Part shown: one piece after another, positions 42,493 through 61,520 of the stretch
Layout of the letters: each line of letters begins with the position of its first letter
How positions within the stretch are numbered: position 1 is the stretch's first letter
Origin: Sulfurospirillaceae bacterium
GTDB lineage: Bacteria; Campylobacterota; Campylobacteria; Campylobacterales; Sulfurospirillaceae
Direction: 5' to 3'
Assembly: GCA_028684065.1 (NCBI GenBank)
Contig: JAQUGO010000002.1
Coordinates: forward strand, 186,001-250,000
DNA length: 64,000 nt
Position numbers and translations under genes: made by a program
The notes under the pieces: generated by a model
Told to the model about the DNA's origin: nothing
The model's input: the letters and a program-made list of their open reading frames with translations, nothing else
Database searches by the model: none

Positions 42493-43398
42493 TTGAAAAC
42501 TATTGCTATTTTAGGACCTACGGCTTCGGGTAAAACAGCACTTTCCATTGCACTTGCCCTTGAGCATCAGGGAATTATCTTATCGCTTGATTCACTGAGT
42601 ATTTATAAAGAAATTGATATAGCCTCTGCCAAACCAACCCTAGAAGAGCGGCAAGGAATCCCCCACTTTGGTATTGATGAACTTTTGCCTAATGAGCCGT
42701 TTAATGTTGTGATGTTTTTTGAACTTTACAAAAAAGCTCTTACTTATGCAAAGTGCCACGATAAAAATCTTTTTATCGTTGGAGGAACAGGGTTTTACCT
42801 TAAAGCATTGATGGATGGATTAAGCCAGAAGCCTTCTATTTCTTTACATGTCAAAGAGCAAATTCAAACACACCTGCACAATCTTCCTGAAACGTATGCG
42901 ATGATTGAGCACTACGATAGCGCTTATGCACAAAAAATCGCCTCAACGGATCGTTACCGTATTGAAAAATGGCTAGAAATATTTCTCTCAGCAAACACCA
43001 TTCCTAGTGCATATCTTATATCGCACAAAAATAAAGCTCTTTTAGAAGATGTTGAACTATTTGAGATTGAAACGGACAAAGAAGCTTTGCGTAAAAAAAT
43101 TGCGCTTCGTACGGAGCTAATGTTAAAAAATGGTCTTATAGATGAAGTTTTTGCTTTGGAGAACCACTATACTAGAGCGCCCCAATGCATGAAATCTATT
43201 GGCATTAAAGAAGTATTAGATTATTTTGATGGTAAATATGCTCTTAACTTACTACACGAGAAAATTACTACCAACACGGTACAACTTGCTAAACGACAAC
43301 GCACTTTTAATACCTCTCAATTCCCTCCCCATATTAAACAGCCTTTAGAGAAACTATATGGTATCATTTCTGAAACCTTACATGGAGAGCCATTTTAG
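42493..43398 (+). CDS. miaA: tRNA dimethylallyltransferase
   Basis: MiaA isopentenylates A37 in tRNAs reading codons that start with U. The P-loop GPTASGKTAL is at the N-terminus, followed by LSLDSLSIYKEIDIASAKP and VGGTGFYLKALMDGL. The C-terminal KRQRTFNTSQF is also typical. The length is 301 residues. The start is TTG 42493 with an AAGGGC site. Its stop codon overlaps the convergent pflA stop. Confidence 0.94.
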   Translation: MKTIAILGPTASGKTALSIALALEHQGIILSLDSLSIYKEIDIASAKPTLEERQGIPHFGIDELLPNEPFNVVMFFELYKKALTYAKCHDKNLFIVGGTGFYLKALMDGLSQKPSISLHVKEQIQTHLHNLPETYAMIEHYDSAYAQKIASTDRYRIEKWLEIFLSANTIPSAYLISHKNKALLEDVELFEIETDKEALRKKIALRTELMLKNGLIDEVFALENHYTRAPQCMKSIGIKEVLDYFDGKYALNLLHEKITTNTVQLAKRQRTFNTSQFPPHIKQPLEKLYGIISETLHGEPF

Positions 43399-45788
43399 AA
43401 AAGTTTTAAGTTCTCTTGGCAAATAGATTTCCATGAGCTTGTTTCATTATTGTCAATGCATTGTGAAAAATACTCTTTTGCTTTTTGCTCGTCTTTATTT
43501 TTTAAGCTAAGTTCACCCGCATTATAATACGCTCTAATTTTATCTTTACTCTCTAACTTTTGCTTTAGTAATGTCTCTACTAAATTAAGGGCTTCCATGT
43601 CCTTTCCTAACCGTTTAAGTGCTTCAATATAATTAAATTCTACCCATGGTGAAAGCGTTGATGATTTAAAATCTTTTTGTAATTTTAAAATACTTTGTGC
43701 ATATTTACTAAGCATTAAATCATCTTTGGTGTCATTACTATAGCGAATCATTTCAGCATAGATATCGATAGAACTAAAATCATGTGGATAGTCCTTATCT
43801 ATCAAATCCACAATACTCAAGGCATCTTCTATTTTTTTGAGTTTCATTAAAGCAAAAAACATACTATGCAATGTTGGTTGTGCTATTTTGCGTTTGACAC
43901 TTTGTGATAAGGCTATAATATCGTTTTTAAAATCTATTACTTTTTGAAATTGCCCCATTTTGTAAAGAGCATCTACCTCTTTTTGCGACCACGCAAAACG
44001 CATCTCTAGCTTTGGCTCTTTAAGATGTTTGACACTAATTTCTTCAGCACGATCAAAGCGAGATAACTTCATAAAGCAGTCAAAAAGCTTTTCTTCACTT
44101 TGAACACCATCAAAAATTAATTTATACTCTTCCGTTAAACCAATCACTTCTTGGCATTTATTTTCTTTCAAGTAGTTCAATGAAAGTGATTTTGCCGCAC
44201 TGTAAATAAGCTCTTCGGGCTTTTCATCGTACGTACCACTGACTGCCAAAAGTTCATTCTTCATGGCTAACAATTCACTAAATTTTTCTTGTTTGACTAA
44301 TAGTTTCGCTTTTTCTATTAATGCTTTTTCACCAATTGGATTACTCCCGTAATTCTTAATAAGCTTGTCATAATAACTGGCTAACTTAGTTTCATTTGAC
44401 TCATTGAGTTTAAAAAAGAGCGCATCAAGACTTTCTTTTACATCTCCTACAAACTCTCCATTAAGTTTATACTCACTTAAATATTCTTGATATTTATCAT
44501 AGGCTGCTTGGACTTCATTACCCTTTGCATGCCAATCTCCACTCTCTTTTAAAAGCTGTTCACGCATCTCATCTTTTTTTGTCAAATTTTCTAACAATAA
44601 ATCCGCTATTTTTGCAGCCAAATCATATAAACCGTGTTCATTAAGCCTTTTTGCTAATTTGTGACTCTCTTCTTTATCTTTGAGTAAAAAATTTGCATTA
44701 GCATTGAGCACTTTCAAGAGATACTCTTTAGCTTCTTTTAGCTTTCCTGCATCCATTTGATGATCACCTAAGCGAATAGCCGCTTCTGATGCAATATCTA
44801 GATCACGGGCACTGTAAAGCACTTCTAAGTAGAGCTTAAGAGCTTTATCTTTCTCTTTTTTTGCAAAAAGATTGTCCGCAAAAAGCAAAATAGCTTTTTT
44901 AGTAAAGTTGCTCTCAGCATGCTCACTCACTAATATATCAATAAAATAATTAGCATCAGCCTTTGAGCCCATTTTTAGATATGTCTTTGCCATTAGCATA
45001 AATACTTCAGGAATATTTTCATCACTGGTGAACTCTTTAGACCAACGTTTTGCCATGGTAATAAGGTCTTCTGAATCAAAACTTGCTGAGGCACTATTTT
45101 CATCTTGTGCACTTAACACTTTATCCATAGAACGCATACTATAAAGCTCTAATTCACTTCGAAAAATAGAATTAGGAAAAAGCGTTAAAACTTTTTTAAC
45201 ATCTTTTACCACTTCCTCAAATAAACCATTTTCATACTCTTTTTTAATATCTAAATAGAGTTGTATATCTTTGCTTTGTGCATAAGAAATCGGGGCACCG
45301 TTCAAATCAAGTGCACCAATATAAGGACGCTTATATTTTTCAAAATTAATAGGAAAATCTAAACCATTTAAGACAGGTTTTTCTGCATATAAAGAAGCTT
45401 CTTCTAAAAGAATAATCCAATGGGTATAATATTTTTGCACGGGTTGAGCTAATATAGCAGTAGTATTATATAAAGAATCTTCTACAGGAAGAATTTTTGA
45501 ATTAACTTTGGGTTCAATTGCAATATAAAACTCTTTATCTTTTTCATAAAAATCAATTTCTGCTAGTTTAAGTTTTTTAGATTCAAATGTTTTATGGATA
45601 CTTTTATCAATTTTGCAAATATAATGTTTTTTTTCAAAAGCATCAGAAATTGTTTCACAAATAAGTGGCTTTGTATCAATAATATGCAAAATTGCATAAT
45701 TAATTTTGCTCTCTTTACCACTGTTAAAGACAATATCTAGGGCAAATATATGTACCGATAAGACAAGAAGGATTAAAATTAATTTCAT
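43395..45788 (-). CDS. pflA: TPR-repeat periplasmic protein, PflA-like flagellar motor component
   Basis: A 797-residue protein with a signal peptide (MKLILILLVLSVHIFALDI), an N-terminal beta-type domain and many TPR-like helical repeats from about residue 170 to the end (for example AKTYLKMGSKADANYFIDIL). In Campylobacter, PflA is a periplasmic motor scaffold needed for rotation; its gene follows nuoN there too, as I recall. N-glycosylation sequons ESNFT, ESNET and DNNET are present. It lacks a ribosome-binding site, and TATAAT lies six bases before the ATG within an inverted repeat. Confidence 0.83.
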   Translation of the reverse strand: MKLILILLVLSVHIFALDIVFNSGKESKINYAILHIIDTKPLICETISDAFEKKHYICKIDKSIHKTFESKKLKLAEIDFYEKDKEFYIAIEPKVNSKILPVEDSLYNTTAILAQPVQKYYTHWIILLEEASLYAEKPVLNGLDFPINFEKYKRPYIGALDLNGAPISYAQSKDIQLYLDIKKEYENGLFEEVVKDVKKVLTLFPNSIFRSELELYSMRSMDKVLSAQDENSASASFDSEDLITMAKRWSKEFTSDENIPEVFMLMAKTYLKMGSKADANYFIDILVSEHAESNFTKKAILLFADNLFAKKEKDKALKLYLEVLYSARDLDIASEAAIRLGDHQMDAGKLKEAKEYLLKVLNANANFLLKDKEESHKLAKRLNEHGLYDLAAKIADLLLENLTKKDEMREQLLKESGDWHAKGNEVQAAYDKYQEYLSEYKLNGEFVGDVKESLDALFFKLNESNETKLASYYDKLIKNYGSNPIGEKALIEKAKLLVKQEKFSELLAMKNELLAVSGTYDEKPEELIYSAAKSLSLNYLKENKCQEVIGLTEEYKLIFDGVQSEEKLFDCFMKLSRFDRAEEISVKHLKEPKLEMRFAWSQKEVDALYKMGQFQKVIDFKNDIIALSQSVKRKIAQPTLHSMFFALMKLKKIEDALSIVDLIDKDYPHDFSSIDIYAEMIRYSNDTKDDLMLSKYAQSILKLQKDFKSSTLSPWVEFNYIEALKRLGKDMEALNLVETLLKQKLESKDKIRAYYNAGELSLKNKDEQKAKEYFSQCIDNNETSSWKSICQENLKLF

Positions 45789-45862: not shown

Positions 45863-47350
45863 TTAAAATCCGCTCGCGATAACGTATTTGGTAATGACAT
45901 TTAAAAGTGGCTCAACGAATAAGACTGCAAAAAGTGTCATCATCGCTGCAAAACCTACAATAACCTTAAGAGGTGTTGATGCATTTGTTGCATAGATACC
46001 GGCATCATTACTCACTGGGTCTTTTAAAAACATGTAGATAACCAATTTCATATAGTAATAGACAGCAATGGCACTGTTGAGAACAATAATAATAGCGAGC
46101 CAAATAAACTGACTATTGACAGCGGCACTGATGAGATACAACTTACCCCAGAAAACAGAAAATGGTGGCATACCTGCAAGTGCAAACATAAAGACACCCA
46201 TAATGGTTGCTGTTATTGGCATGATTTTAACCATACCAGAGAATTTAGTAAACGGGTGTTGATAACGCTCATCCCAAAGATTTTTCTGATGTCGCACGAT
46301 CCAGAGCATCGCAAATGCACCAAGATTGGTAAACATGAAAAGTGTCCAATAAAGAAAAAGTGCTGAGTTTGCTTGTGTTGTACCGATAAGGATGGCAGCC
46401 ATCATAGAACCTGCATGAGATATGGAACTAAATGCAAGCATTCGTTTCACATCTTCTTGCACTAATGCCGTAATATTTGCTAATGTCATTGTTAATACCA
46501 CAACACCGTACAATATATATTCTAACCATACTACACCGGAAAGTACCAACATTTCAAATAGACGCATAGCAACGACAAAACCAGCTATTTTTGGCACAAT
46601 TGACATATAGCCAGCTAAAGGGGCAGAACTTCCTTCATAGACATCAGGAGTCCATGTATGAGACGGTACTAAGGAAAGTTTAAAACCAAGTGCACCAATC
46701 ATAAAGACAGTACCTGCCAAGACACCGACTAATGGTTCAAAATCTCTTTCGATTAAGACTTGTTCAATTTGATGAATTTCAACACTTCCTGTTAATGCAT
46801 AAAAAATAAGTGCTGAGAGTGTATAGAAACCTGCGGCTAATGCACCCATTGTAAAATACTTAATGGCTGCTTCAAATGCTTTAGCACGATTGTGTAAAGC
46901 AATCAATGTATAAAGCGCCAAACTTGATGTTTCAAGTCCTAAGAATATAAGAATTAAATTGTCACTGGCAACCATAAATTGGAAGCCCACAATCATGAAC
47001 ATAAACAAGGCATAGTACTCTGCCATCTTAAATTCTTTGAAATGACGATGACTTAATGAAAGGGGTACAAAGAAAGCTGAGGCAACCAAGATAATCACTT
47101 GTGCAATCCGTGCAATGCCATCAACTAGCATAACATCAAAAAAACCTCTAATAGAACCATTATAACCGATAACTGCTCCTAAGTCGAGAAGGATAAAAAG
47201 CACTGTAATCATCGTGTAAAAACTTCTATTGAGTCCCTTTGCCATCAAATCGATACAAATGACACCTAAAGCCCCTACTACTAAAATTGCCATAGGAAGA
47301 AGGGCTGGAAGATTGAGGCTTGCCATACTGATTGAGATTGGCTCTAACAT
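45863..47350 (-). CDS. nuoN: NADH-quinone oxidoreductase subunit N
   Basis: One of three antiporter-like proton-pumping subunits of complex I. The 495-residue protein has about 14 helices and the conserved stretch [20 protein letters not shown], with key lysines and histidines of the Mrp-type fold, and [12 protein letters not shown]. It is the last gene of the nuo operon and abuts nuoM. The pflA gene follows after 74 bases. Confidence 0.96.
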
Positions 47351-48876
47351 TATTTGGTCCCTCCTATACTATTAACATTTATGATAAATTTGCTTGTATT
47401 CGGGTCTATCGCTTTTTTCTCCATCAAAACAAGCATTTTTTTAACACTCATATCAATTGTTGTTAAAATTGGTTTAGGATATACACCTAAAATGACAACC
47501 AATGCCACTAATGGCACCAACGCTGTTAATTCTTTACCATTTAAATCTTTTAAACCCTTATTTTCTTCATGTGTGACTTCTCCAAAAAAAGATTTTTTAT
47601 AAAGAGTCAGCATATAAATTGCGCCTAAAATAATTCCTGTACCTGCTAATAAAGTCATAATCCAGCTTACTTTATAAAAACCCGCTAAGGATAAAAACTC
47701 TCCAACAAAGCCAATGGATAAAGGAAGTCCAACAGAAGCCATTAACATAATGCCATATACAGTAGCAAACCCTGGCATTACGCTTGCAAGCCCACCAAAA
47801 TCTTTCATTAGTTTGGTATGGCGTCTATCATAAATAACACCTACGAGCATAAAGAGTGCACCACTGACGATACCATGACTCAGCATTAAAAAGATAGAAC
47901 CAGTAATGCCTTCAGCATTCATAGCAAATGTTCCAAGAACCACTATTCCCATATGTGAAATAGAACTATAAGCAATAACTTGCTTCATATCTTCTTGTGC
48001 ATAAGCTACCATCGCCGCATAAATAACCATGATAATTGCAATAATCGCAATGGGATATAAAAAATAAACTGCAGCATCTGGAAATAATGGAAGTGAAAAA
48101 CGAACAAAACCGTAACTTCCCATTTTCAATAATACTGCCGCTAGAATAATAGAACCAATCGTTGGTGCTTGTCCGTGCGCATAAGGCAACCACGTATGAA
48201 AAGGAAACATTGGTACTTTGATAGCAAAGGCTAAGAAAAAGGCACCAAAGAGCCATAATTGTGTATCGAAAGGAATTTGTAACAAGTACCAATCAGGCAA
48301 AGCAAAACTCCAAACACCTGTTGCATCGTGATACAAAAATGCCATATATAAGATACCTACTAGCATCAAAACTGAACCAGCAAAAGTATAAAGGAAAAAC
48401 TTAACAGCAGCATACAAGCGCTGTGCACTACCCCATGCACCAATAATATAAAGCATTGGTACCAAAGAAAGTTCCCAAAATGCATAAAACAAAATAACAT
48501 CTAAAATAAGGAAAACTCCTACCATTGTCATTTCTAAGAAAAGAACAGAAATGATAAGATTTTTTACATCTTTTTCAATACTAAGGGAAATGAGCGCAAT
48601 CATGGTAATAAAACTTGTCAGCAATGCTAAGAAAAGCGAAATACCGTCTACACCAAGATAATAACTCATACCAATACTTGGAATTAAAGGTGAATATTCA
48701 ACAAATTGATACCCAGCATTACTACCATCAAAGCCGATCCATAAAACAAGGCAGAGTAAAAATTCGATAGCACTGACGCTTATACCATAAGCCCTAGCAC
48801 TATCTTTATTTACCATAAAACCTAACAGACCTGCAACAGCGGGGAAAAATACGATTAACGATAAAATGTGATCCAT
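47350..48876 (-). CDS. nuoM: NADH-quinone oxidoreductase subunit M
   Basis: A 508-residue antiporter-like subunit of the membrane arm. It has [20 protein letters not shown] around the broken-helix region and [13 protein letters not shown], both typical of NuoM. The essential Glu in [14 protein letters not shown] is present. Its start is ten bases after nuoL, and its stop touches nuoN. Confidence 0.96.
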
Positions 48877-48885
48877 TACTAACTC

Positions 48886-50742
48886 CTACACCATTGGTCT
48901 ATAAAAAATTGCAAGAGCAAGCAACACCACCATGCCAACAATCATCCAGCGTAACATGTCTGAAAGATTACCGTTTTGCATTTGTCGTGTTTTCGTTCCT
49001 GTTCCATACACTATTTTAGCAATCATATCCACCGTAGCGTCAACAATTTTAACATCAATTTTTTGCCAAATAAAGTGAGAAAGTACAGTAAATGGACGCA
49101 TAATATACATTGCATATAATTTAGGAATAAAATATTGATTGATTAATAATTTATAACAAGCTCTATTTTCAAGTGATTTACTAAAGCCTCCACGACTGTA
49201 CATGTAAATAGCAAAAGCAATGCCACTAATTGCGATAGCTGATGTTCCTGCTATCAAGGCCCATTCTGTCCCATGGCTCAGATGAACTTCATAATGACTG
49301 AGTAAGCGTGTTACAAAGCCTTCAAAGCTATGTTCAAAGAAACCTGCGATAATCGCTAGAAGACCTAATGGCATTAAGGCATAAATGACAAAAGGTTGTG
49401 CTTCGTGCGGATGAATACCATATTTTGGATGCTCTTTTTCACCAAAGAAAACCAACATCACTAAACGGAAGCTGTAAAATGCTGTCATACCCGCACCTAT
49501 AAAAAGTGCAAACCATAGGTAATATGCGCCATGGTTAAAAGCAACTTCTAAAATTTTATCTTTTGAGAAGAAGCCTGCAAATGGGTAAATACCAGCAAGT
49601 GCAACTGAAGCAACACTCATTAAAATAGCGGTTGCTTTCATCGAGCCATAAAGTCCACCCATTTTTTTAATATTGAGCTCATCGTGCATCGCATGCATAA
49701 CATTACCTGCACCTAAAAAGAGAAGTGATTTAAAGAAAGCATGTGTCATAAGGTGGAAAAGTGCTATCCAATAAGCACCAAGCCCTGCAGCCACAAACAT
49801 ATAACCTAACTGTGAAAGTGTGGAATATGCAATAATACGTTTTAAGTCATTATTAACCAGTGCCATTGATGCTGCAAATACAGCAACAAATGCACCCAAT
49901 GAGGCAATAGCAAATCCAATATGTGGAATTAAGGTATAAAGCTCTCCACAACGAATCACTAAATAAACACCCGCCGTTACCATCGTAGCGGCGTGAATGA
50001 GTGCAGAAACGGGCGTTGGGCCTTCCATCGCATCAGCAAGCCATGTATGGAGTGGAAATTGTGCTGATTTACCCATTGCACCAATAAATAAGAAAGTACC
50101 AATTGTTGTTACTATCGTAATATCCATTGATTTAACAGCTGCAAATACGATATCGTATTGGAATGAGCCAATTTGCCAATAAATAAGGAAAAGACCCATC
50201 AACATGCCAAGGTCAGCAATTCGGTTCATAATAAATGCTTCATTTGCAGCCCATGAGGCACTGTGTTTGTGATACCAAAAACCAATAAGAAGCCATGAAC
50301 AAAGACCAACGCCTTCCCATCCGATAAAGAGTCCTACAAAGTTATCACTCATCACCAAAATCATCATTGAAAAAACGAATGCAGATAAATAGGAGAAAAA
50401 GCGGTTAAAGCTCTTATCATGATCCATATACCCAATTGAATAGATATGAACAATGGTTGAAACCAAAGTTACTGTGACCATCATAATCACTGATACTTGA
50501 TCCACTACAAATCCAAACGGAACATGAAGATTTCCAGCATCAATCCAATCCATCATCTTGACATGTAAAGCGCCATTAGCATTAACATCAATCAATAGAA
50601 CAAAAGATGCCACCATGGAAAGACCAATCAAAGCTGAAGCTAAAATACCCGTAAAGAGCATTTTAGGGCGTGCTGCAAAAAGTGCTACCAATAAGGAACT
50701 CAGAAGGGGTGCAAAAAGTGCAATATAGACAAATTTTTCCAT
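48886..50742 (-). CDS. nuoL: NADH-quinone oxidoreductase subunit L
   Basis: The distal antiporter-like subunit with the long lateral helix at its C-terminus. The 618-residue protein shows FIGWEGVGLCSWLLIGFW, FPLHTWLADAMEGPTPVSAL and YSTLSQLGYMFVAAGLG, all diagnostic. It lies three bases after nuoK. One copy of the ACATGTAAAG motif lies inside it at 50561. Confidence 0.96.
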   Translation of the reverse strand: MEKFVYIALFAPLLSSLLVALFAARPKMLFTGILASALIGLSMVASFVLLIDVNANGALHVKMMDWIDAGNLHVPFGFVVDQVSVIMMVTVTLVSTIVHIYSIGYMDHDKSFNRFFSYLSAFVFSMMILVMSDNFVGLFIGWEGVGLCSWLLIGFWYHKHSASWAANEAFIMNRIADLGMLMGLFLIYWQIGSFQYDIVFAAVKSMDITIVTTIGTFLFIGAMGKSAQFPLHTWLADAMEGPTPVSALIHAATMVTAGVYLVIRCGELYTLIPHIGFAIASLGAFVAVFAASMALVNNDLKRIIAYSTLSQLGYMFVAAGLGAYWIALFHLMTHAFFKSLLFLGAGNVMHAMHDELNIKKMGGLYGSMKATAILMSVASVALAGIYPFAGFFSKDKILEVAFNHGAYYLWFALFIGAGMTAFYSFRLVMLVFFGEKEHPKYGIHPHEAQPFVIYALMPLGLLAIIAGFFEHSFEGFVTRLLSHYEVHLSHGTEWALIAGTSAIAISGIAFAIYMYSRGGFSKSLENRACYKLLINQYFIPKLYAMYIMRPFTVLSHFIWQKIDVKIVDATVDMIAKIVYGTGTKTRQMQNGNLSDMLRWMIVGMVVLLALAIFYRPMV

Positions 50743-50745
50743 TGA

Positions 50746-51048
50746 TTATCCCTTCATCATCTGTAGACTGTTAAGATCAATGCTTCCATTGCGCTTGTAC
50801 CATAAAATCAATAGTCCAAGACCAACGGCAACCTCACTTGCGGCAACTGCAATGATAAAAAATGAGAACATTTGCCCACTTAAATCACCGTAATATTTAG
50901 ATACAGCCACAAATCCTACGTTGACCGCATTGAGTAAAATCTCTGTTGAGAAAAATAGCATTAAAAGGTTTGTTCTGCGCATGACACCAACTAAACCAAT
51001 CGAAAATAAAATACCTGTTAAAACAAGGTAGTGGGTTAACGTTATCAT
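50746..51048 (-). CDS. nuoK: NADH-quinone oxidoreductase subunit K
   Basis: A 100-residue, three-helix membrane subunit (MrpC-like). The buried glutamates of the E-channel are in FSTEILLNAVNVGFVA and AAASEVAVGLGLLIL. Its start overlaps the nuoJ stop (ATGA type). Confidence 0.95.
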   Translation of the reverse strand: MITLTHYLVLTGILFSIGLVGVMRRTNLLMLFFSTEILLNAVNVGFVAVSKYYGDLSGQMFSFFIIAVAASEVAVGLGLLILWYKRNGSIDLNSLQMMKG

Positions 51049-51596
51049 TTAACCTCCTTTACAACATCACATTCTTCACTCATTTCTTCTTCTAAATCCA
51101 TTTTTTTACTGGCTAAAACAATACCCGCAATCATCGCAACTAAAAGCATAATAGCAGCTAATTCAAATGGCACCAAATATTTGGTAAATAATACAAGTCC
51201 TATCATTTGAATATTGCCCGTATTTTGTAAGGATGGGTAATTTGCTTGAATGGCTCCAGAAAAGAACGGAGCACATAAAATTGCTAGTATCAAAATCGCA
51301 CTCAAAATAGAAAGCGTATACGCTATCTTTTTATTTTTGATATTTTCTTTGACATCCCGTGTGGTATCAAAAAACATCATACCAAAGGCATAAAGCGCCA
51401 TAACGGCACCTGAATAAACCGTGATTTGCACCACGCCTAAAAACTCTGCACCCAAGATAAAAAAGAATCCAGAGATAAAAATCATTCCGCCCGCCAATGC
51501 ACTCATCGCATAGAGTGCATTTTTACTAAGCACCACAATGGTAAACATACCAATGGTCAGTGCCGAAAAAATATAAAAAGCTATAATTTCATACAT
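51045..51596 (-). CDS. nuoJ: NADH-quinone oxidoreductase subunit J
   Basis: A 183-residue membrane subunit with five predicted helices. The conserved ALYAMSALAGGMIFISGFFF and FLGVVQITVYSGAVMALYAF are typical; the latter forms the pi-bulge helix of the E-channel. A short acidic cytoplasmic tail ends the protein. It lies seven bases after nuoI. Confidence 0.94.
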   Translation of the reverse strand: MYEIIAFYIFSALTIGMFTIVVLSKNALYAMSALAGGMIFISGFFFILGAEFLGVVQITVYSGAVMALYAFGMMFFDTTRDVKENIKNKKIAYTLSILSAILILAILCAPFFSGAIQANYPSLQNTGNIQMIGLVLFTKYLVPFELAAIMLLVAMIAGIVLASKKMDLEEEMSEECDVVKEVK

Positions 51597-51603
51597 GGTA
51601 ACC

Positions 51604-52221
51604 TCAATACGCTAATGGTGTTTTTTTAACGAACTCATCTGCATTATCACTCAATGCACCAAATCCTGGGAACTCTTGTTGTTGTTTTGCTTTGAAAGTA
51701 TCAAGAGGGGTTAACATATCCTCTTTAAGTCCAAAATGTGCACGTTGTTCGCTAGCATTTTCATAGTCACTTCCGTGAACAATTGCTAACTCAGGACACA
51801 CTTCAGCACAGTACCCACAAAAAATACAGCGACCAAAGTTAATGGAGTATTCACTCACCACTTTACGACTTCGTTCATCCACATGTGTGTCCATGCGGAT
51901 ACAATTTGAAATACAAATTTTTTCGCACAATCCACATCCGATACAGCGCTCACTACCACTTTCAAATAAACGCAACAATCTATGTACAGCACGATATCGT
52001 GGTCCCATCTCTAACTTTTCAGCAGGATATTGCACGGTATGAATATCAAAACGTATCATCTCACGAAACACTATCCAAAGACCGACAAAAAGTTCCCCTT
52101 TGATACTACGTTTAACCGTACGTTTAAACATCTGCCAACCATTTTCAGGTACTTTTTCACCTTCAAAAAAGATGTAGCCAGGAGCTATATTTCTATTTTT
52201 AAAATCTTTTAATTCCATCAC
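51604..52221 (-). CDS. nuoI: NADH-quinone oxidoreductase subunit I
   Basis: A 205-residue peripheral-arm ferredoxin carrying clusters N6a and N6b. The two 4Fe-4S motifs are [15 protein letters not shown] and [13 protein letters not shown]. In complexes without NuoE/NuoF these clusters still pass electrons toward NuoB. The N-terminal ~60 residues form the membrane-adjacent helix. It lies between nuoH and nuoJ. Confidence 0.96.
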
Positions 52222-52229
52222 TACTCCTT

Positions 52230-53222
52230 CTAGACCAATGCAAGACCGGTAATTACAACATTAATTACCGCTAGAGGCATAAGCACTTTCCAGCACACCC
52301 ACATTAACTGATCTGGTCTGATATGTGGCCACGCCGCTCTTACCCATAAAAACAAGAAAACCCAAAATGATACTTTGAAAAGCATCACTAACGCCCCTGG
52401 AATAAACCAAATAGGGTTATATCCGCCCATAAAGACAATACTTACTAAAACCGAAATGGTGATCATATTGGCATATTCACCTACGAAGAAAAGACCCCAA
52501 CGCATGCCAGAGTATTCCGTAGCATACCCAGATACAACTTCTGCTTCGAACTCTATCGTATCAAATGGAGAACGATTTGTTTCCATAAAGCCAGCCATTG
52601 CAAAAAGAAGGAACGCTAAAGGTTGTTTCCAAATGAGCCAATTTGTCACACCACCACTTTGATAATCATTGATATCAATGAGTGAAAGCGAGCCTATCAT
52701 CATAATCGGTGCTAAAACAGAAAGTCCACTAACCACTTCAAAGGAAAGCATTTGCACAACTGCACGTGCTGCACCCAAAAGTGACCATTTGTTAGCACTA
52801 CTCATACCGGCTAACAACGGTCCATAAACACCAACAGATGATACACCCATTACATATAAAAGCGCTACATTGATGTCTGAGACAATCGGTGTGATTGTAT
52901 AGCCAAAAAGTGTAAACTCAGGAAAATAAGGAACGGCCGCCATAGCTGTAAATGCTGTCGTTGCCGCAATCACTGGCGCTAAGATGAAAATTGGTTTGAT
53001 AACATTTTGAGGGATAATATCCTCTTTGGTAAACAACTTAATACCATCAGCCGCTAGTTGTAACACACCATAAGGGCCTACATGCATAGGTCCAAGTCGA
53101 CGTTGCATAAAAGCCAATACCTTTCGCTCAATCCAAGTGGCAAAAGCACCCATACCTGCTGTCACTGAAAGAACAATGACGGCTTTGATAATCGTTTCAA
53201 TTACTACAGCTGTTTCATTCAT
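52230..53222 (-). CDS. nuoH: NADH-quinone oxidoreductase subunit H
   Basis: A 330-residue membrane subunit forming the quinone entry site. Diagnostic segments are [40 protein letters not shown] and [20 protein letters not shown]. Its start overlaps the nuoG stop by eight bases. Confidence 0.96.
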
Positions 53223-55692
53223 GGTCTACACCTCTTATCGTTAGCTTCGCAAATCTATATCCATTTTCAAACAATGGCGCAATATCCAGTTTCGTATCAA
53301 ATGTTGGTAAATACGGAATTAACCCACCGATATGCGCATCACACTGAACAGAAACTACCAATTTAGCCCCTGTATCATTACTAATATGTACCACTGAACC
53401 CTCTTTTAACTGATGGGCTTCTAAAAATTCTGCTGAGGCATAAAGTGCACCTGTCGTATTCAATTGATGTGCTCTGTTTGTAAAAGCGCTAAATTGTAAA
53501 ATAGGGTTTGCTAAATATACAACATTTGAACCAAACTCTTGTACCTCAGATAAAGGTTCAACATCAGTGTTACATGTAAGCGTTGAAACAGAAAGCAAAT
53601 AACCTCTATTTTCGTAACCGCTATTATCAAATACATTCGGCAGCGTATCAAATTCTACAGCTTGATAGCCTTTAGCCAGAGGTAATGCTTTGGTATAGTC
53701 TATAGTCCACTCACTTTCCAAACCAAGAGCAATGGCGATATCATTTAAACAGTAGCCTTTAAAAAGAAGTGCTGCATTGGTTGGAACGACACGTTTATTC
53801 ATTGAAGTAAACGTACCTTCTTGTTGGTTAAGTGCAGGCATTGCCAAATCTCCATTACCAAGTGCACTTAAAGTAAAGTCAGCTTTCACATTATATCCCA
53901 GCGTAAATTGGCCTTTTGCTTCATCCAAATCACAAATTAAGGCAACACCTAAAGTATTGGTGCGACTTGGGATAATTAAGACATTAAAATCAGTATATTT
54001 TTCAATAAGTCCTAAAAGTTTTGCAATATTTTCTGCACGAGGATGTGCGTATAAATCTTCACCTACAATTAAACTAAAACTATCTTTTTTCTCAAGAAGT
54101 TTTTGAATTTTTTCATTCAAATCAGCCTCTGCGCCAATTAGTTCAAGCAAGGCATTAGTATCAACGTCAATCTCTTTATCAATGACTTTGGTAACACTTT
54201 TCACAACCTCTTTTTCTTCACCACTCTCTTCATCTTTGACCATCTCTTTGACATCTTCTTTAATGCTTTCTTGAATGGTTTTTTTACTTATTGTGTGAAA
54301 TGTTGCAAGATAATCAACTAAGGATTGTGGCATAGCTGCTTTATTTCCAAAAGTATCCAGTAAAAAATAGGCAATTGCTTCTTCAGCCCCAACTTTATGC
54401 GTAATACTTAAAAGGTTTTTAGAATATGCCGAAACAACAGGATCAATGATAGGGTGGAAATAAAGTCCTGCACCTTTGTTGATAAGCAGTGCATTGTTCA
54501 TTGCATAACCGCTATTTGGGCTATCTGTTTTAAGGGCTGAACCAAAGCTAACCACAAAATTGCTTTCGCGTACTTTGTTCAAATCACCATTGTAAAGATT
54601 TGTGCCACTTGTTTGTGAAAAAGCTTTTAAAAATTTCTGATATGAAAGAGCATCGGAATTAATCAAACGATAACCAAATTTTTCTTTGAGTTTTTGTAAA
54701 ATGAGTGCTTCTTCATTAGTAATGTAACTGTCAAAAGCAATTGTATCAACTTTGGTTTTTAACAATTCAACCGCATGTGCAAATGCTTTTTCATCTTTAC
54801 CTTCAACTACATTTTCGAAATCAAACCCATAACGTGCGGCACCATGCAATGGAGCATAGTTTTGGTCACTGCTCACACGGTAGATTTTTGGTTGTGAATC
54901 TTTAATAGAAGAGTGTTTTATATCATAATACATAAGTGAGCAGTCACTACTATGAGGATTACTCGCAGGAATTTTTTTAAGTTCCCAAGCATTTGATTTG
55001 TATTGGAAATCACTTCCAACCAATGCCCCTACGGGACAAACGGCTGTACACTCACCACAAAATGTACAATCTAAACTGTCAGCACCACTGGCAACACCAA
55101 TGATAGACTTTTGAAGTTTATTCCACATCGCATAGGCATCTTTTTCCGTGTTATCTTTCCAGCTCTTATCAAGCTCTGCACCACCTCTTGGTACGGTTTT
55201 AAGAGCACTATCACCAATCATATCTTTACAAACTGTGACACAACGTTCGCATACAATACATAAAGATGAATCATAATGTATCAATCCCCAGTTTTTTGTT
55301 GGGCGGTGTGTATCAGCGATGCAATGACGTTGTGAATCTACACCCATTTCTAGGGTATAATTTTGCAATTCACATTCACCACTTTGATCACATACACCGC
55401 ATTCTAAAGGGTGATTGATATCATAAATCTCCATGATAGCTCTTCGCTCTTTTTCAATATCTTCTGTTTTGGTAATAACGCTCATTCCCTCTTTGGTTCT
55501 GGCATTACAGCTATAGGCGCGCTTTCCATCTACCTCAACCAAGCATAAACGACATGCAAGGGTTGGCGAACAGTTAGTAACATAACAAAGAGCTGGTATG
55601 AAAATACCATTCCTTCGCGCAACATTTAAAACATATTCGCCCTCTTTGGCAACACACTGTTTTCCGTCAATTGTTATTACAATATCGCTCAT
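53215..55692 (-). CDS. nuoG: NADH-quinone oxidoreductase subunit G
   Basis: The largest peripheral subunit, 825 residues from ATG 55692 (an upstream codon adds four residues and overlaps the preceding gene). The N-terminal 2Fe-2S ligands (Cys36, 47, 50, 62), the HxxxC N3 motif, and 4Fe-4S motifs LCIVCERCVTVC and CTFCGECTAVC are present. The C-terminal molybdopterin-like half lacks a cofactor role. It holds a highly acidic insertion at about 466-510. Residues ~540-573 closely match the neighbouring NuoF-position protein. Confidence 0.94.
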   Translation of the reverse strand: MSDIVITIDGKQCVAKEGEYVLNVARRNGIFIPALCYVTNCSPTLACRLCLVEVDGKRAYSCNARTKEGMSVITKTEDIEKERRAIMEIYDINHPLECGVCDQSGECELQNYTLEMGVDSQRHCIADTHRPTKNWGLIHYDSSLCIVCERCVTVCKDMIGDSALKTVPRGGAELDKSWKDNTEKDAYAMWNKLQKSIIGVASGADSLDCTFCGECTAVCPVGALVGSDFQYKSNAWELKKIPASNPHSSDCSLMYYDIKHSSIKDSQPKIYRVSSDQNYAPLHGAARYGFDFENVVEGKDEKAFAHAVELLKTKVDTIAFDSYITNEEALILQKLKEKFGYRLINSDALSYQKFLKAFSQTSGTNLYNGDLNKVRESNFVVSFGSALKTDSPNSGYAMNNALLINKGAGLYFHPIIDPVVSAYSKNLLSITHKVGAEEAIAYFLLDTFGNKAAMPQSLVDYLATFHTISKKTIQESIKEDVKEMVKDEESGEEKEVVKSVTKVIDKEIDVDTNALLELIGAEADLNEKIQKLLEKKDSFSLIVGEDLYAHPRAENIAKLLGLIEKYTDFNVLIIPSRTNTLGVALICDLDEAKGQFTLGYNVKADFTLSALGNGDLAMPALNQQEGTFTSMNKRVVPTNAALLFKGYCLNDIAIALGLESEWTIDYTKALPLAKGYQAVEFDTLPNVFDNSGYENRGYLLSVSTLTCNTDVEPLSEVQEFGSNVVYLANPILQFSAFTNRAHQLNTTGALYASAEFLEAHQLKEGSVVHISNDTGAKLVVSVQCDAHIGGLIPYLPTFDTKLDIAPLFENGYRFAKLTIRGVDHE

Positions 55693-55700
55693 TGAACTTC

Positions 55701-56552
55701 TCACTTCACAATTTTTGCTACACTGTAGCGATAGGATATATCCTCATTTTTGGCACACGGCATCAAAGCGATCGTTCCTTTCAAACTCTCGTCTAAGACA
55801 AATGTACGTGGATACATCGCTTGATTTATAGCAACCTGAATTTTTTCTCCATGTTGCACCTTTGCTGCCATTTGAAATTGTAAGGATCCCACTAAATTAC
55901 CCTCTTCTTCTTTATCATGTGCGGGACATCGATAGACCACGACACCATCAAAACTTTTTAGGGACTCAACTTCTTCAGGTATAATCTCTTTTGTATCTGT
56001 TATTTCTAAATCTTCAGTATGTGAAAGTAAAATTTTGGCTTTTCCGTATGAAGCGAAAAGACCTGCAAGACGTGCTATATTTTTTGCCCGAGGGTGATTA
56101 TAAAGATCATCGCCCAATACAATCACAACACGTGCACTTTGCTCATAAAGAGATTGAATTTCTTCAATTTCTTCTTCCCCTATATTACTTTCTGCACTTA
56201 AATATCCGTCATCTAAATTTTCAAAATAGACTTGTAAATCATTGGGTAACACTGTGTTTGCTAAGAATGCTTTGGTCAATAATGCTAAAACACCCTCTTC
56301 TGAACCTGCTTCATAACGACTAAAAAAAGTTGTTTGCTCACGTAGTTCTTTTTCTTCCATCGTACAAAGATAGACTAGCGATGCTTTTTCAACTTCAACA
56401 CACGAGGCTATTTCTTGAAGCATTGTTTTATTATCACGTGAAAGCAGAGTTCCTAGCACAATAATCAAATCATTACCCTTACATGTAAAGGTGAAATGCG
56501 TTACATCATGGTGCATAAGGGCGGTTATAAAATCTGCTTTTGCGTTTTTCAC
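55701..56552 (-). CDS. NuoF-position protein, NuoG-related, no FMN or iron-sulfur motifs
   Basis: A 283-residue protein where nuoF normally lies. It has no FMN-binding glycine-rich loop and no 4Fe-4S motif, so it cannot be a classic NADH-oxidising NuoF. Instead VIVLGDDLYNHPRAKNIARL (143-162) aligns with NuoG (about 540 on), with roughly 16 of 34 residues identical. The rest is colinear with the NuoG C-terminal half. In C. jejuni the equivalent gene (Cj1574c) replaces NuoF, and reduced flavodoxin is the proposed electron donor. It overlaps nuoG and the NuoE-position gene. Confidence 0.8.
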   Translation of the reverse strand: MKNAKADFITALMHHDVTHFTFTCKGNDLIIVLGTLLSRDNKTMLQEIASCVEVEKASLVYLCTMEEKELREQTTFFSRYEAGSEEGVLALLTKAFLANTVLPNDLQVYFENLDDGYLSAESNIGEEEIEEIQSLYEQSARVVIVLGDDLYNHPRAKNIARLAGLFASYGKAKILLSHTEDLEITDTKEIIPEEVESLKSFDGVVVYRCPAHDKEEEGNLVGSLQFQMAAKVQHGEKIQVAINQAMYPRTFVLDESLKGTIALMPCAKNEDISYRYSVAKIVK

Positions 56553-56788
56553 TCGCTTTTGCCTTTAACTTTTTTAACCACGATAGTCCAATCGGTTTCG
56601 TTAAACTTCAAAGAGTTCATAAGAGTCCAACCTGCCTCTTTAATCACATCAGCACTTTTCTGAATCGGTGTAAAATCACCAATTTCAAACATAAAAATGG
56701 AAACTTCGCCCTCTTTGGTTTCATTTACAATTTCTAGCATTCTTCCGTAAAAATCATCTTTAAGATGTCGTAAATCATAACGTTGCAT
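56549..56788 (-). CDS. NuoE-position protein without iron-sulfur ligands
   Basis: A 79-residue protein in the nuoE position. Canonical NuoE has about 160 residues and four cysteines for a 2Fe-2S cluster; this one has none. Its sequence MQRYDLRHLKDDFYGRML is typical of the short Campylobacterota protein (Cj1575c type) thought to help dock a non-NADH electron donor. It starts eight bases after nuoD and overlaps the next gene by four. Confidence 0.78.
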   Translation of the reverse strand: MQRYDLRHLKDDFYGRMLEIVNETKEGEVSIFMFEIGDFTPIQKSADVIKEAGWTLMNSLKFNETDWTIVVKKVKGKSE

Positions 56789-56796
56789 GCCTTCTC

Positions 56797-58023
56797 CTAT
56801 CTGTCGATTTCGCCAAAGACGATATTACTATTTCCAATAATAGCAACAACATCTGCAAGGTATTCACCCACCAACATCTCTTGAAAAAAGCCCGTATGGA
56901 AGAAACTTGGTGCTCGTAGTTTTAAACGATATGGATACGGGTCACCTTGAGAATTGATGTAAAAACCAAGTTCACCTTTAGGTGATTCAGTTGCAACATA
57001 CACTTCGCCTACTGGAGGACGCATACCTTGTGTCACTAAAACAAAATGCTGCATCAACGAATAATTTTGTGTCATCACTTGCTCTTTAGGCGCAGAAATG
57101 TATTGAGGGGCATGAGCCATTATTTCTGGACTTGTTCCGGCATACATTGGCATAAGTTGTTTTAAAATACGGATACTTTGGCGCATCTCTTCCATGTGCA
57201 ATTTATACCTTCCATAACTATCACACGTGGTACTCACAGGCACATCAAATTCAACTTCATCATAGAGTTCATAAGGCTCTTCTTTACGAATATCCCATGC
57301 AATTCCTGAACCTCTAAGCATTGGACCACTCAAGCCCCAAGATTGAGCTTGTTCAGGTGTAACCCTGCCTACATTTTCCAAACGCATTTTCCAAATACGA
57401 TTTTGATCTAACAGACCTTCGTAATCGGCAATATCAATCGGTAAATGGTTAATAAATTTATTGAGTCTATCTAACCAGCCTGCTGGTAAATCTAAAGGAA
57501 CACCACCAATTCTAACAGAAGAGTGAGTCAATCGAGCTCCACAATAATCTTCAATCAAATCTAAGGCATACTCTCTTTCTCTAAACGCATACAAGAAAAT
57601 GGTCATTGCTCCAACGTCAAGTGCGTGACATGCCAACCAAAAAAGATGCGAAGTAATACGGTTCAGTTCTAAAAGCAACATGCGAATTACTTTAGCGCGA
57701 CGTGGCACTTCAAGGCCAATAAGCTTTTCTACCGCAAGTGCAAAACCATAGTTATTGGAAGTTGCAGCGATATAATCCATTCTATCCGTTGTTGGCAAAA
57801 ATTCATTATAAATCATATTTTCTGCCATTTTCTCCATACCACGGTGCAAATACCCAATATCTGGCGTTGCTTTGGTAACAATTTCACCATCGAGTTCTAA
57901 AATAAGGCGTAGTTGTCCGTGAGAGCTTGGATGTTGTGGTCCAAAGTTAACAATCATATGGTTGTCTTCTCGCTCGAAGACTAAGTTTTCAAAAAATGGT
58001 TTGAGTCTATTTACCTTTTGCAT
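56797..58023 (-). CDS. nuoD: NADH-quinone oxidoreductase subunit D
   Basis: The 49-kDa-type subunit that forms the quinone pocket with NuoB. The 408-residue protein has [20 protein letters not shown] with the quinone-site histidine, [14 protein letters not shown], and ends FGEIDR as expected of the family. It lies three bases after nuoC. Confidence 0.97.
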
Positions 58024-58026
58024 GGC

Positions 58027-58827
58027 TTAAGGTCTCTCTTTCAAGAATTTCACATCTTCTTTTTTCAATTTTTTAACGATAAATACACCACCTTCTTCTT
58101 GGTAGTCTGTGGCTGTTTTCTCTTGACTTACAGGAGCCCCGAATGGCACTTCGTGATGAATGTGTGAGAAGCGATAGGTATCATCCACATCAATGCGAGC
58201 GGCATCTCTCTCTTCTGGTCCAATAATATCGCGATACTCTTTACCAAAAATTTTATCAATTTCATACCATTGCGCCGCTTCATCTCCATGTAAAGGATAC
58301 GTTTTACGTAATGGATGATCATACCAATCATCAGGCATCAAAATGCGTTTCATATAGTGATGCCCACTGATAATCACACCAAACATGTCATACATTTCAC
58401 GCTCTGCCCAATCAGCACTTTTATAAACACCTGTGACACTCTTCAAAGTCTCTTTTTCTTTGATAAAACATTTAATACGAAGGCGTTTACGTTTACTAGT
58501 AGAAAGCATCTGGTAAAAAATTTCAAACTCACCACGCTTTGCTAACCAATCAATGGCGCTGTGCTCGGATAAAAAGTTATAAGCTAATTCATCTCGAAGC
58601 GTTGTGAGTACATCAACATTATCAGTAGCATTAATATACACAACCATTTGGTCACGTTGAATATACGCTTCTTGTATCTCAAATTTTTCTTTGAGTATCG
58701 CTAAATCTTGTGCAAAAACAGCATCACTTTGCACATCAAATTTTGGCACTTGTGGGGCAACCCAAAATCTATCACTAAAATAGGGTTTTTTTTGTACGTT
58801 TTCTTTTTCTTTATACTGTCGCATCAT
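58027..58827 (-). CDS. nuoC: NADH-quinone oxidoreductase subunit C
   Basis: The 30-kDa-type subunit of the peripheral arm, 266 residues, separate from nuoD. The family signature [20 protein letters not shown] is followed by [19 protein letters not shown]. The N-terminal ~35 residues and the last ~45 are extensions beyond the core. The start overlaps the nuoB stop as ATGA. Confidence 0.95.
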
Positions 58828-59333
58828 ACCAACCTTTTTGGCTGAAGTTTATGAGAAGCACTTTCTGTTCGAATCTTCTTTTGGAGGAGCATCAACGCAT
58901 ATTGTAATGTTTCCGGACGAGGAGCACACCCTGGTAAATAAATATCTACAGGTATGATTCTATCGGCTCCTTGAACTGTAGCATAGGTATTAAACATACC
59001 GCCAGTATTGGCACAACTTCCCATACTAATAACCCATTTAGGCTCAGCCATTTGGTCATACAAACGTCGCATAAAAGGAGAGTGCTTTTTGGTAAGTGTC
59101 CCAGCAATAACAATGACGTCAGCTTGTCGTGGACTCGCTCTAAAAATGGTTCCAAATCGGTCAAAGTCGTAACGACTTGCACCGGTTGCCATCATCTCAA
59201 TGGCGCAACATGCTAAACCGTACGTAAGTGGCCAAAGTGAATTGCTTCTACCCCATTGTACCAGCTTATCAACGGTTGTTAAAGCAACAGGCAAACCTGC
59301 TTCTTGAAGATAATTTATCTTATGCTGTGCCAT
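58824..59333 (-). CDS. nuoB: NADH-quinone oxidoreductase subunit B
   Basis: NuoB carries cluster N2, the last iron-sulfur centre before quinone. Ligands are in [34 protein letters not shown] and [12 protein letters not shown] 59333 gives 169 residues and has AAAGGAG seven bases upstream; the in-frame codon at 59354 would lie before that site. It overlaps nuoA by 19 bases. Confidence 0.96.
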
Positions 59334-59704
59334 TCTAGTGCTCCTTTTTTCCATGCATATACAAATCCTATTGCAAGAACTAGTACAAATAAAATCATTT
59401 CTACCAATCCAAACATACCTAGCACTTTAAAATCTACTGCCCATGGAAACATAAAAATAATTTCCACATCAAACAAGATAAATAAAAGAGCAAAAAGATA
59501 AAAATGTGCCGATATTTTGTTGGGCTGTTTTGTTACCTCTGGACCACATTCATAAATGGTCAGTTTTAACTTCTCTGTATCCAATCGTGCCATTCTTCGA
59601 CTCACGATTCTGGCTAATGCAGCGATTCCATAAAAAACGCCTGCGCCAAAAAAGAGAAGAAAAAAAGCTCCAAAATAGGGGTGAGCAAAATCCATATGTG
59701 TCAT
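59315..59704 (-). CDS. nuoA: NADH-quinone oxidoreductase subunit A
   Basis: A 129-residue, three-helix membrane subunit next to the quinone site. [20 protein letters not shown] includes the conserved YECG loop, and [20 protein letters not shown] is diagnostic. It is the first gene of the 14-gene nuo operon (A-B-C-D-E'-F'-G-H-I-J-K-L-M-N). The ATG at 59704 has an AAGGA site seven bases upstream. Confidence 0.95.
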
Positions 59705-59777: not shown

Positions 59778-61520
59778 TTACGCTAAATGGTGCATAAAAC
59801 CAACGGATTTAGTATCTCCAAAAGCTCCTTTAGATTCTCTTTCAATGGCTATTTTAAAATCTTCTAACGTAAAAATCGGCTTTTCTTTTGTAGCAACTTT
59901 TAAAGCAGTATTTTTCAGAACCAATCGTATTTGTCCACCAGTTAACGGGAAATGGGCTAATGCTTCGCTATCAAAGCCTTTTTCATATGTAGCATTTTCA
60001 GGAAGTAATTTTTTCCAAAGTTCTAAACGCTGTTTAAAATCAGGTTTTTCAAAGGCTATTTTATAATCAAAACGCCTTGAAAATGCAGGGTCTATCGTTT
60101 CCAACAAGTTGGTTGTCGCTACTAAAAGCCCATCAAAACGCTCAATTTGCTCTAAAAAAATATTTTGCATTTGATTATGCATCTTATCCGCTCCCGAATT
60201 TGCATCGATGGAACGTGAACTTAAAAATTGATCAGCTTCATTTAAAAGCAAAAGTGGTTCACTTTTTGTTTTCTTACAAAGTTCTTTATAGGTATCGAAG
60301 ATATTGCGCACATTCTTTTCACTCTCACCAACATATTTGGAAAGAATCTTTGAACAATCAAAGCTTAACACACGCTTTTTCATTGACTTTGCCAACGAAA
60401 CAGCCGTCATCGTTTTACCAGTTCCAGGAGGGCCATAAAAAAGAATTTTTGCATCTATCCCACTGCGGCGCTCTTTAACACCCCATTCACGCAACAGTTT
60501 TACCACATTTTTATCGATTTGTTTTAAGAGGTTGTCTAATATTTCACGTGTTTTAGGATGCAAAATAACATCATCTAAACTCGTTTTGGGGTCAATCAAT
60601 TCAAATAATTCTTGCTCACCGATAAGCATATCGAGTTTGATTTTTTTGCTTTTTTTCTCTTTATTCGGATGCATAATTTTTTGTAAAAACTCTTCACTTA
60701 TAAAAAAACTACGTGTAACTCCTCCAAAAGTGCTAAGCATTTCATCATAATCAATAATTAAATTTTCGATAAGCTTCGAGCCTTCTTCGAGTAAAGAGCG
60801 GTTTTTGATTTTTTCATAATCGTCAAAACTAATTAAGCTAATAAGGGTATTCATATCACGCAGGCTTTCAAACTCACCCGCATACTCTTCTTTTAAGAGG
60901 GCTAAAAAAATCAACTGCTCTTTGGGACCCAATTCATTTTCTTTAAAAATACTCTCAACCACAATCTCGTTTTCAGTGACTTTAATACGCTCATTAATAC
61001 GACTTTCAAGTAATTGAAGTTTTGATTTAATGCGTCCAATACTGGGTGAATTATCTGTGGCATTGTGTTTGGCATGGCTTAGTTTTTGGTATAAGTCAAT
61101 GCGAAAAAATTGGTCTTTTAAATACTCTAGATGATCCTCATAGGAAGTAATTTCAGGCAGAATAACCTCAAGCGTTCCTTCTTCAAGAAGTTTTAAAAAA
61201 GCAGAGCTTAGTGTTACACTACTGTTAAGAAGTTCAAGATTAGAGATATCCACTGCTTTTGCATTTAAAAAGCTGTTTTGAACAATCCATCCCTGCTCAA
61301 TAATATCTTTTACAAGGGGAAGTTGCTCCAAATGCAAATAATTTTTATCACCAAAAAGTTTAATTAAGATATCAGATACATTCAAATCGACGGAACCCAA
61401 AACATATTCCTTAGTCATAACCTGCAATAGTTTTGCTTCTGCCGGTGAACATTTTAAATGTTCATAAATTTGGCATTTTTCAACAGTATTACTCTCTAAA
61501 AAATCTATCAAATATTGCAA
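59778..61520 (-). CDS. Stand-alone AAA ATPase of unknown role
   Basis: A 580-residue protein. The C-terminal third is an AAA domain: Walker A GPPGTGKT (363-370), pore segment KYVGES (395-400), Walker B LLLLNEAD (423-430) with Asn427 where Asp is usual, sensor ATTN and arginine finger SRRFD. The N-terminal ~300 residues are helical with no named domain; such regions often bind substrates. It resembles classical-AAA remodelling ATPases of unknown target. Start is TTG 61520 with AAGG upstream, and it has its own promoter and an upstream terminator. Confidence 0.82.
   Translation of the reverse strand: MQYLIDFLESNTVEKCQIYEHLKCSPAEAKLLQVMTKEYVLGSVDLNVSDILIKLFGDKNYLHLEQLPLVKDIIEQGWIVQNSFLNAKAVDISNLELLNSSVTLSSAFLKLLEEGTLEVILPEITSYEDHLEYLKDQFFRIDLYQKLSHAKHNATDNSPSIGRIKSKLQLLESRINERIKVTENEIVVESIFKENELGPKEQLIFLALLKEEYAGEFESLRDMNTLISLISFDDYEKIKNRSLLEEGSKLIENLIIDYDEMLSTFGGVTRSFFISEEFLQKIMHPNKEKKSKKIKLDMLIGEQELFELIDPKTSLDDVILHPKTREILDNLLKQIDKNVVKLLREWGVKERRSGIDAKILFYGPPGTGKTMTAVSLAKSMKKRVLSFDCSKILSKYVGESEKNVRNIFDTYKELCKKTKSEPLLLLNEADQFLSSRSIDANSGADKMHNQMQNIFLEQIERFDGLLVATTNLLETIDPAFSRRFDYKIAFEKPDFKQRLELWKKLLPENATYEKGFDSEALAHFPLTGGQIRLVLKNTALKVATKEKPIFTLEDFKIAIERESKGAFGDTKSVGFMHHLA

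Follow-up and report, generated by a model that had tools for sequence, protein, structure and literature searches.

A NuoG paralogue, probably the cofactor-free remnant of a second, full-length NuoG, fills the NuoF position in a Sulfurospirillaceae complex I operon

What kind of protein occupies the place of NuoF in a complex I operon that otherwise looks complete, and does it work within complex I? This question was raised by a 64,000-nucleotide stretch of DNA from a Sulfurospirillaceae bacterium (GCA_028684065.1, contig JAQUGO010000002.1, positions 186,001 to 250,000 of the forward strand), hereafter called the window. Its nuo genes are arranged A-B-C-D-X-F-G-H-I-J-K-L-M-N, in which X stands at the NuoE position and F at the NuoF position. 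F comprises 283 aa with a GTG start, and its gene overlaps both the NuoE-position gene and the NuoG gene by 4 nt (Table 1). The same operon slot is held by Cj1574c/HP1265, which were described as replacing nuoF (PMC4178425, PMC6682613), the replacement genes being known as nuoX/nuoY (PMC6682613). HP1265 was annotated as NuoF in H. pylori (PMC3561388), and X of this species was found by NMR to bind FMN (PMC6269979). A passage of PMC4178425 describes Campylobacter work in which Cj1574c was linked to flavodoxin and complex I.

Table 1. Location of F, its parts and the neighbouring genes in the window
Feature	Coordinates	Strand	Basis and remarks
F-position protein ("nuoY")	55701..56552	(-)	Homology, tree and model; probably what is left of a second NuoG (G1), without Fe-S sites
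Predicted molybdopterin-oxidoreductase-type alpha/beta domain, F ~22-191	55979..56489	(-)	Model, pLDDT ~75 over 22-178
C-terminal part, F ~190-283	55704..55985	(-)	Collinear with NuoG ~700-829; no confident model
LDDGYLSAESNIGEEE motif, F113-128	56169..56216	(-)	Conserved in G1 and in F, orphan copies included; not in adjacent NuoG
NuoE-position protein X ("nuoX", PF16514)	56549..56788	(-)	Pfam match
NuoG (G2), paralogue of F	53215..55704	(-)	829 aa; ~374-829 aligns with F
nuoD, nuoC, nuoB, nuoA	56797..59704	(-)
nuoH, I, J, K, L, M, N	45863..53222	(-)
AAA+ ATPase gene, upstream of nuoA	59778..61520	(-)	Adjoins orphan F upstream in f9 genomes without this nuo operon
DUF7494/TPR gene, downstream of nuoN	43395..45788	(-)	Adjoins orphan F downstream in f11 G154, f13 and f14

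The FMN/NADH and 4Fe-4S domains of NuoF (PF01512 and PF10589) were sought in F by Pfam and neither was found; no other Pfam match to F was returned. The sole PF01512 protein of the genome lies in a second, conventional nuo cluster, and the occurrence of two complex I clusters in Sulfurospirillum was already known (PMC4794192). On contig C7 of genome G000 (L004, L105), a conventional NADH-type second set carries nuoA, nuoB, a fused nuoCD, nuoE and nuoF on one strand, with a short NuoG (506 aa) and nuoH-N placed divergently from the nuoA-F part; between these parts lie other genes, some of them for GGDEF-type signalling.

From a short block of identities (GDDLYNHPRAKNIARLAGL at F147-165 and GEDLYAHPRAENIAKLLGL at NuoG548-566), the first-pass annotation of this DNA had proposed that F is a paralogue of NuoG and not derived from the NuoF flavoprotein. 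The homology was found to be real, and stronger than that annotation could show. BLASTP of F against the neighbouring NuoG gave E=3e-10 with 21 of 47 positions identical, and the Smith-Waterman score of 123 was reached by none of 1000 shuffles (mean 41, sd 6). In the profile-profile alignment that had been suggested as a check, 17 short F proteins and 33 NuoG proteins from the NuoG position, aligned separately, matched with a probability of 99.8% (E=1.6e-27) over 254 collinear columns. F16-269 aligned to NuoG376-829 in profile columns, so that the homology spans almost all of F, with one stretch of ~110 residues present in NuoG only. The two side matches originally pointed out, GSEEG/GAEEA and VLPNDL/MPQSLV, were both in register. 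As a control, the F profile was compared with profiles of NuoC, NuoD, NuoH, NuoI and the flavoprotein described below, and the probability was below 2% in these comparisons. The NCBIfam NuoG model NF006305 matched F at 7.7e-25 in three stretches, and a PDB sequence search with F returned no relatives.

The predicted fold agrees with this relationship. In an AlphaFold model built from a three-sequence alignment, in which the C-terminal 95 residues had no confident model, the region ~20-202 was best matched by 7xqw_A (Z 16.6, 2.4 A over 169 residues). The structures matched were catalytic subunits of formate dehydrogenase and nitrate reductase, and Foldseek recovered E. coli NuoG with the same model (E=3e-3). 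The modelled part of F is thus predicted to be a molybdopterin-oxidoreductase-type domain, and the dissimilarity of folds outside the short block that would have spoken against paralogy was not what the model gave. An AlphaFold model of NuoG, also from a three-sequence alignment, had a pLDDT of 29.

F therefore resembles the C-terminal half of NuoG/Nqo3 (the 75 kDa subunit) but lacks both the 2Fe-2S and 4Fe-4S half and the inner ~110 residues. With the entire N-terminal half, the ligands of clusters N1b, N4 and N5 are missing, and F is consequently not expected to conduct electrons as NuoG does. Across the F family, neither an invariant cysteine nor a recognised cofactor site was found. The NuoG of the window itself has its cysteines for the off-pathway cluster N7 replaced (N249, S252, S256, H287), whereas these are kept in 20 of 33 related NuoG proteins; the association between short F and N7 loss is imperfect.

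The proposed origin of F, duplication of the C-terminal half of NuoG, did not hold. F was used to search 200 genomes of the same order, and forty loci were read for gene order. In many families, the match to F fell inside a protein of 660-785 aa, and in ~20 family groups the order was nuoD - X - flavoprotein (~670 aa) - G1 - G2 (NuoG) - nuoH - nuoI. G1 is a full-length NuoG paralogue that occupies the F position and retains the 2Fe-2S and 4Fe-4S cysteines in 21-22 of 22 copies; no additional short F was found in the genomes with a long G1. The apparent absence of F or G1 from genome G115 is explained by a contig end. A tree built on the region common to these proteins had two clades, one made up of all G2 proteins (100/99) and the other of G1, short F and orphan F (encoded away from this kind of nuo operon) (100/99). 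F is therefore orthologous to G1, and was not copied from the C-terminal half of the adjacent NuoG.

G1 (e.g., L080:4254-6527) and F have in common, besides the operon slot, an acidic LDxGYLSAExNxGEEE motif that is also kept in orphan F, and by its GYLSAExNxGEEE portion F is set apart from the adjacent NuoG, which lacks it. In contrast to F, G1 keeps the Fe-S sites, in most cases including that of N7, and is invariably preceded by the 670-aa flavoprotein. Since the Fe-S half of G1 is retained in most families, F is read as what was left after this half and the adjacent flavoprotein had been lost. The two losses coincide: the flavoprotein adjoins every one of the 22 G1 copies that retain the Fe-S half, and it is absent at the 10 nuo-borne short F loci read for this, at the window F and beside the truncated G1 of family f12, an intermediate form of 472 aa.

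The flavoprotein combines the 4Fe-4S domain of NuoF with a GltD/NfnB-like FAD domain; one example is L080:2244-4244, between X and G1, with equivalents in ~20 family codes. It matched the A subunit of Caldicellulosiruptor NfnABC (9bov) at 4e-86, NfnA (9n5u) at 3e-73 and 8oh5_C, which we take to be a Stn-type subunit, at 6e-69. Set beside these electron-bifurcating NfnABC/Stn transhydrogenases, it corresponds to their NfnB-like part and to the NuoF 4Fe-4S part, but here the parts are separate genes within a complex I operon, and they are absent from the window. Among the open-access papers searched, with subscription papers largely outside the search, none described the flavoprotein-G1-G2 arrangement, orphan nuoY or a relationship of nuoY to NuoG.

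Families f6, f9 and f14 hold both long and short forms, and short F could either have been produced by repeated truncation or have arisen once and spread by replacing the flavoprotein and G1. The latter is possible, though somewhat short of an even prospect. A single clade of all short forms was not rejected by the AU test (p=0.49) despite the mixed families, but neither was a clade of the long and short forms of f9 (p=0.56). Moreover, the G2 tree united f9 members of the two forms (99/97), and the intermediate G1 of f12 also speaks against a single event.

The occurrence of F outside complex I was evaluated in the order-wide sample of 200 genomes, in which a table of X presence was set against that of F and the counts were made by hand. 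X was missing from 38 genomes, which carried a short F in 30 cases, a long G1 in three (fragmented assemblies) and no clear F in five. The orphan-F genomes tested for X (PF16514) and NuoD had neither X nor a NuoD of this type; NuoD of any kind was not found in f14 g40 (G060, G073), and only a conventional fused NuoCD was present in f9 g12/g67. F likewise persists in many genomes that have no NuoG of this type or no NuoE-position protein. Gene order shows how this came about. Within genus g14 of f11, the order is ABC - nuoA-D - X - F - nuoG-N - TPR - miaA in G010 and ABC - F - TPR - miaA in the congeneric G154; similarly, G163 (f9) has AAA - nuoA ... N - one further gene - mqnD - murB - topA, and f9 g12/g67 have AAA - F - mqnD - murB - topA. 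These comparisons indicate that the flanking nuo genes were lost in place while F stayed. In f13, f14 g40 and f14 g71, F adjoins the TPR gene that elsewhere follows nuoN. In f16 (L142-L145), orphan F immediately follows hemN of a hemA-E-B-C-N operon, which may hint at a second role, and in f11 g36 it lies beside a MoeA-like gene, these gene names being assigned from the sequences.

Most pairs of orphan F proteins are under purifying selection, with dN/dS of 0.04-0.39 in the closer pairs, the lowest values coming with saturated dS. Higher values (0.5-0.65) were obtained for some pairs, possibly reflecting AT bias and loose constraint. It is thus highly improbable that F is a functionless, decaying leftover of G1. 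F is indeed truncated, fast-evolving and missing from a few genomes (f14 g69 and two of five f14 g40), but its motif is conserved, its frames are intact across many families under purifying selection, and it was kept in place while the genes on both sides were deleted.

Conversely, complex I occurs without F in G185 and G144 (f14 g48) and in G002 (f3), where X is followed directly by NuoG. F is not an obligate complex I subunit, as it occurs without other nuo genes. According to the model in the literature (PMC4178425, PMC6682613), F would replace NuoF as a complex I subunit and help flavodoxin and the FMN-binding X to pass electrons to NuoG, the orphans being relics or cases of minor moonlighting. 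We consider this unlikely. The location of F between X and NuoG with overlapping starts and the FMN bound by X in H. pylori fit such a role, but F shows neither an invariant cysteine nor a recognisable cofactor site, several lineages have retained it alone once X and every nuo gene of this type had gone, and some nuo operons do without it. Flavodoxin presence does not track F either: the f16 and f13 genomes have F and no long-chain flavodoxin, and F is missing from the f14 g69 genomes, where flavodoxin is present, which leaves a link between the two unsupported by co-occurrence. The suggestion that F might stack on NuoG and offer a docking face for flavodoxin, a prediction of the first-pass annotation, is weakened, because F outlasts NuoG and X and because flavodoxin does not follow its distribution. 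The probable role of F, like its origin, thus differs from what had been proposed.

The reading that we prefer is that F is a cofactor-free remnant of G1, probably kept for a function independent of complex I and likely to serve in binding or as an adaptor without redox activity. That F works outside complex I is most likely, because it is retained without nuo genes and some nuo operons lack it. A contribution to complex I as well is suggested by the near-constant location of F in the operon of genomes that have nuo genes, and here by the 4-nt overlaps. In the proposed sequence of events, G1 would be an ancient tandem duplicate of NuoG, which most of the Campylobacterales families sampled keep as a full Fe-S protein between the flavoprotein and the true NuoG, an arrangement that may serve for electron input of the NAD(P)H type. 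In the family of the window and several others, the flavoprotein would have been lost and G1 would have shed its Fe-S half and an inner piece, leaving the molybdopterin-oxidoreductase-like domain and the C-terminal part, with the acidic motif already present in G1. As F outlasts the deletion of all surrounding nuo genes, its function would need no complex I. Carrying no electrons itself, it would act as an adaptor on complex I where this is present and presumably on another partner elsewhere.

Cj1574c of C. jejuni is said to be essential and the nuo genes not, a result attributed to Weerakoon and Olson in 2008, and this fits an independent role of F. More tentatively, and at close to an even prospect, F may be a housekeeping protein of Campylobacterota that was derived from a complex I subunit and functions independently of complex I, its full-length ancestor having belonged to an NAD(P)H input arm of complex I, still present in many relatives, that would resemble NfnABC and might bifurcate electrons. 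If true, this would explain the reported essentiality in spite of dispensable nuo genes. A complex I whose input module resembles NfnABC is suggested by the long forms, and the papers searched held no description of one. A concrete route is also offered by which this complex I came to be without an NADH module, in that a flavoprotein disappeared together with the Fe-S half of a second NuoG. Finally, a protein that carries the annotation NuoF in both pathogens and free-living bacteria is given a corrected identity: the family sharing the slot of Cj1574c/HP1265 is a relative of NuoG and not of NuoF, as established on other genomes of the order rather than on these two named sequences. An old puzzle is hereby made testable, namely the role of a NuoG remnant in cells without this kind of complex I.

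Some minor observations were made along the way. In the f6 genome G118, a second X-F pair most like that of the window's family was found at a contig end (C9:397-1352), attributable to contamination or transfer. In G144, NuoG is apparently split into two ORFs of 305 and 510 aa (L162:3528-5944). The AAA+ ATPase gene of the window, directly upstream of nuoA, a position that it also has in f9 and f19 genomes, showed distant similarity to the model of the anti-phage ATPase IteA and to CDC48-type ATPases.
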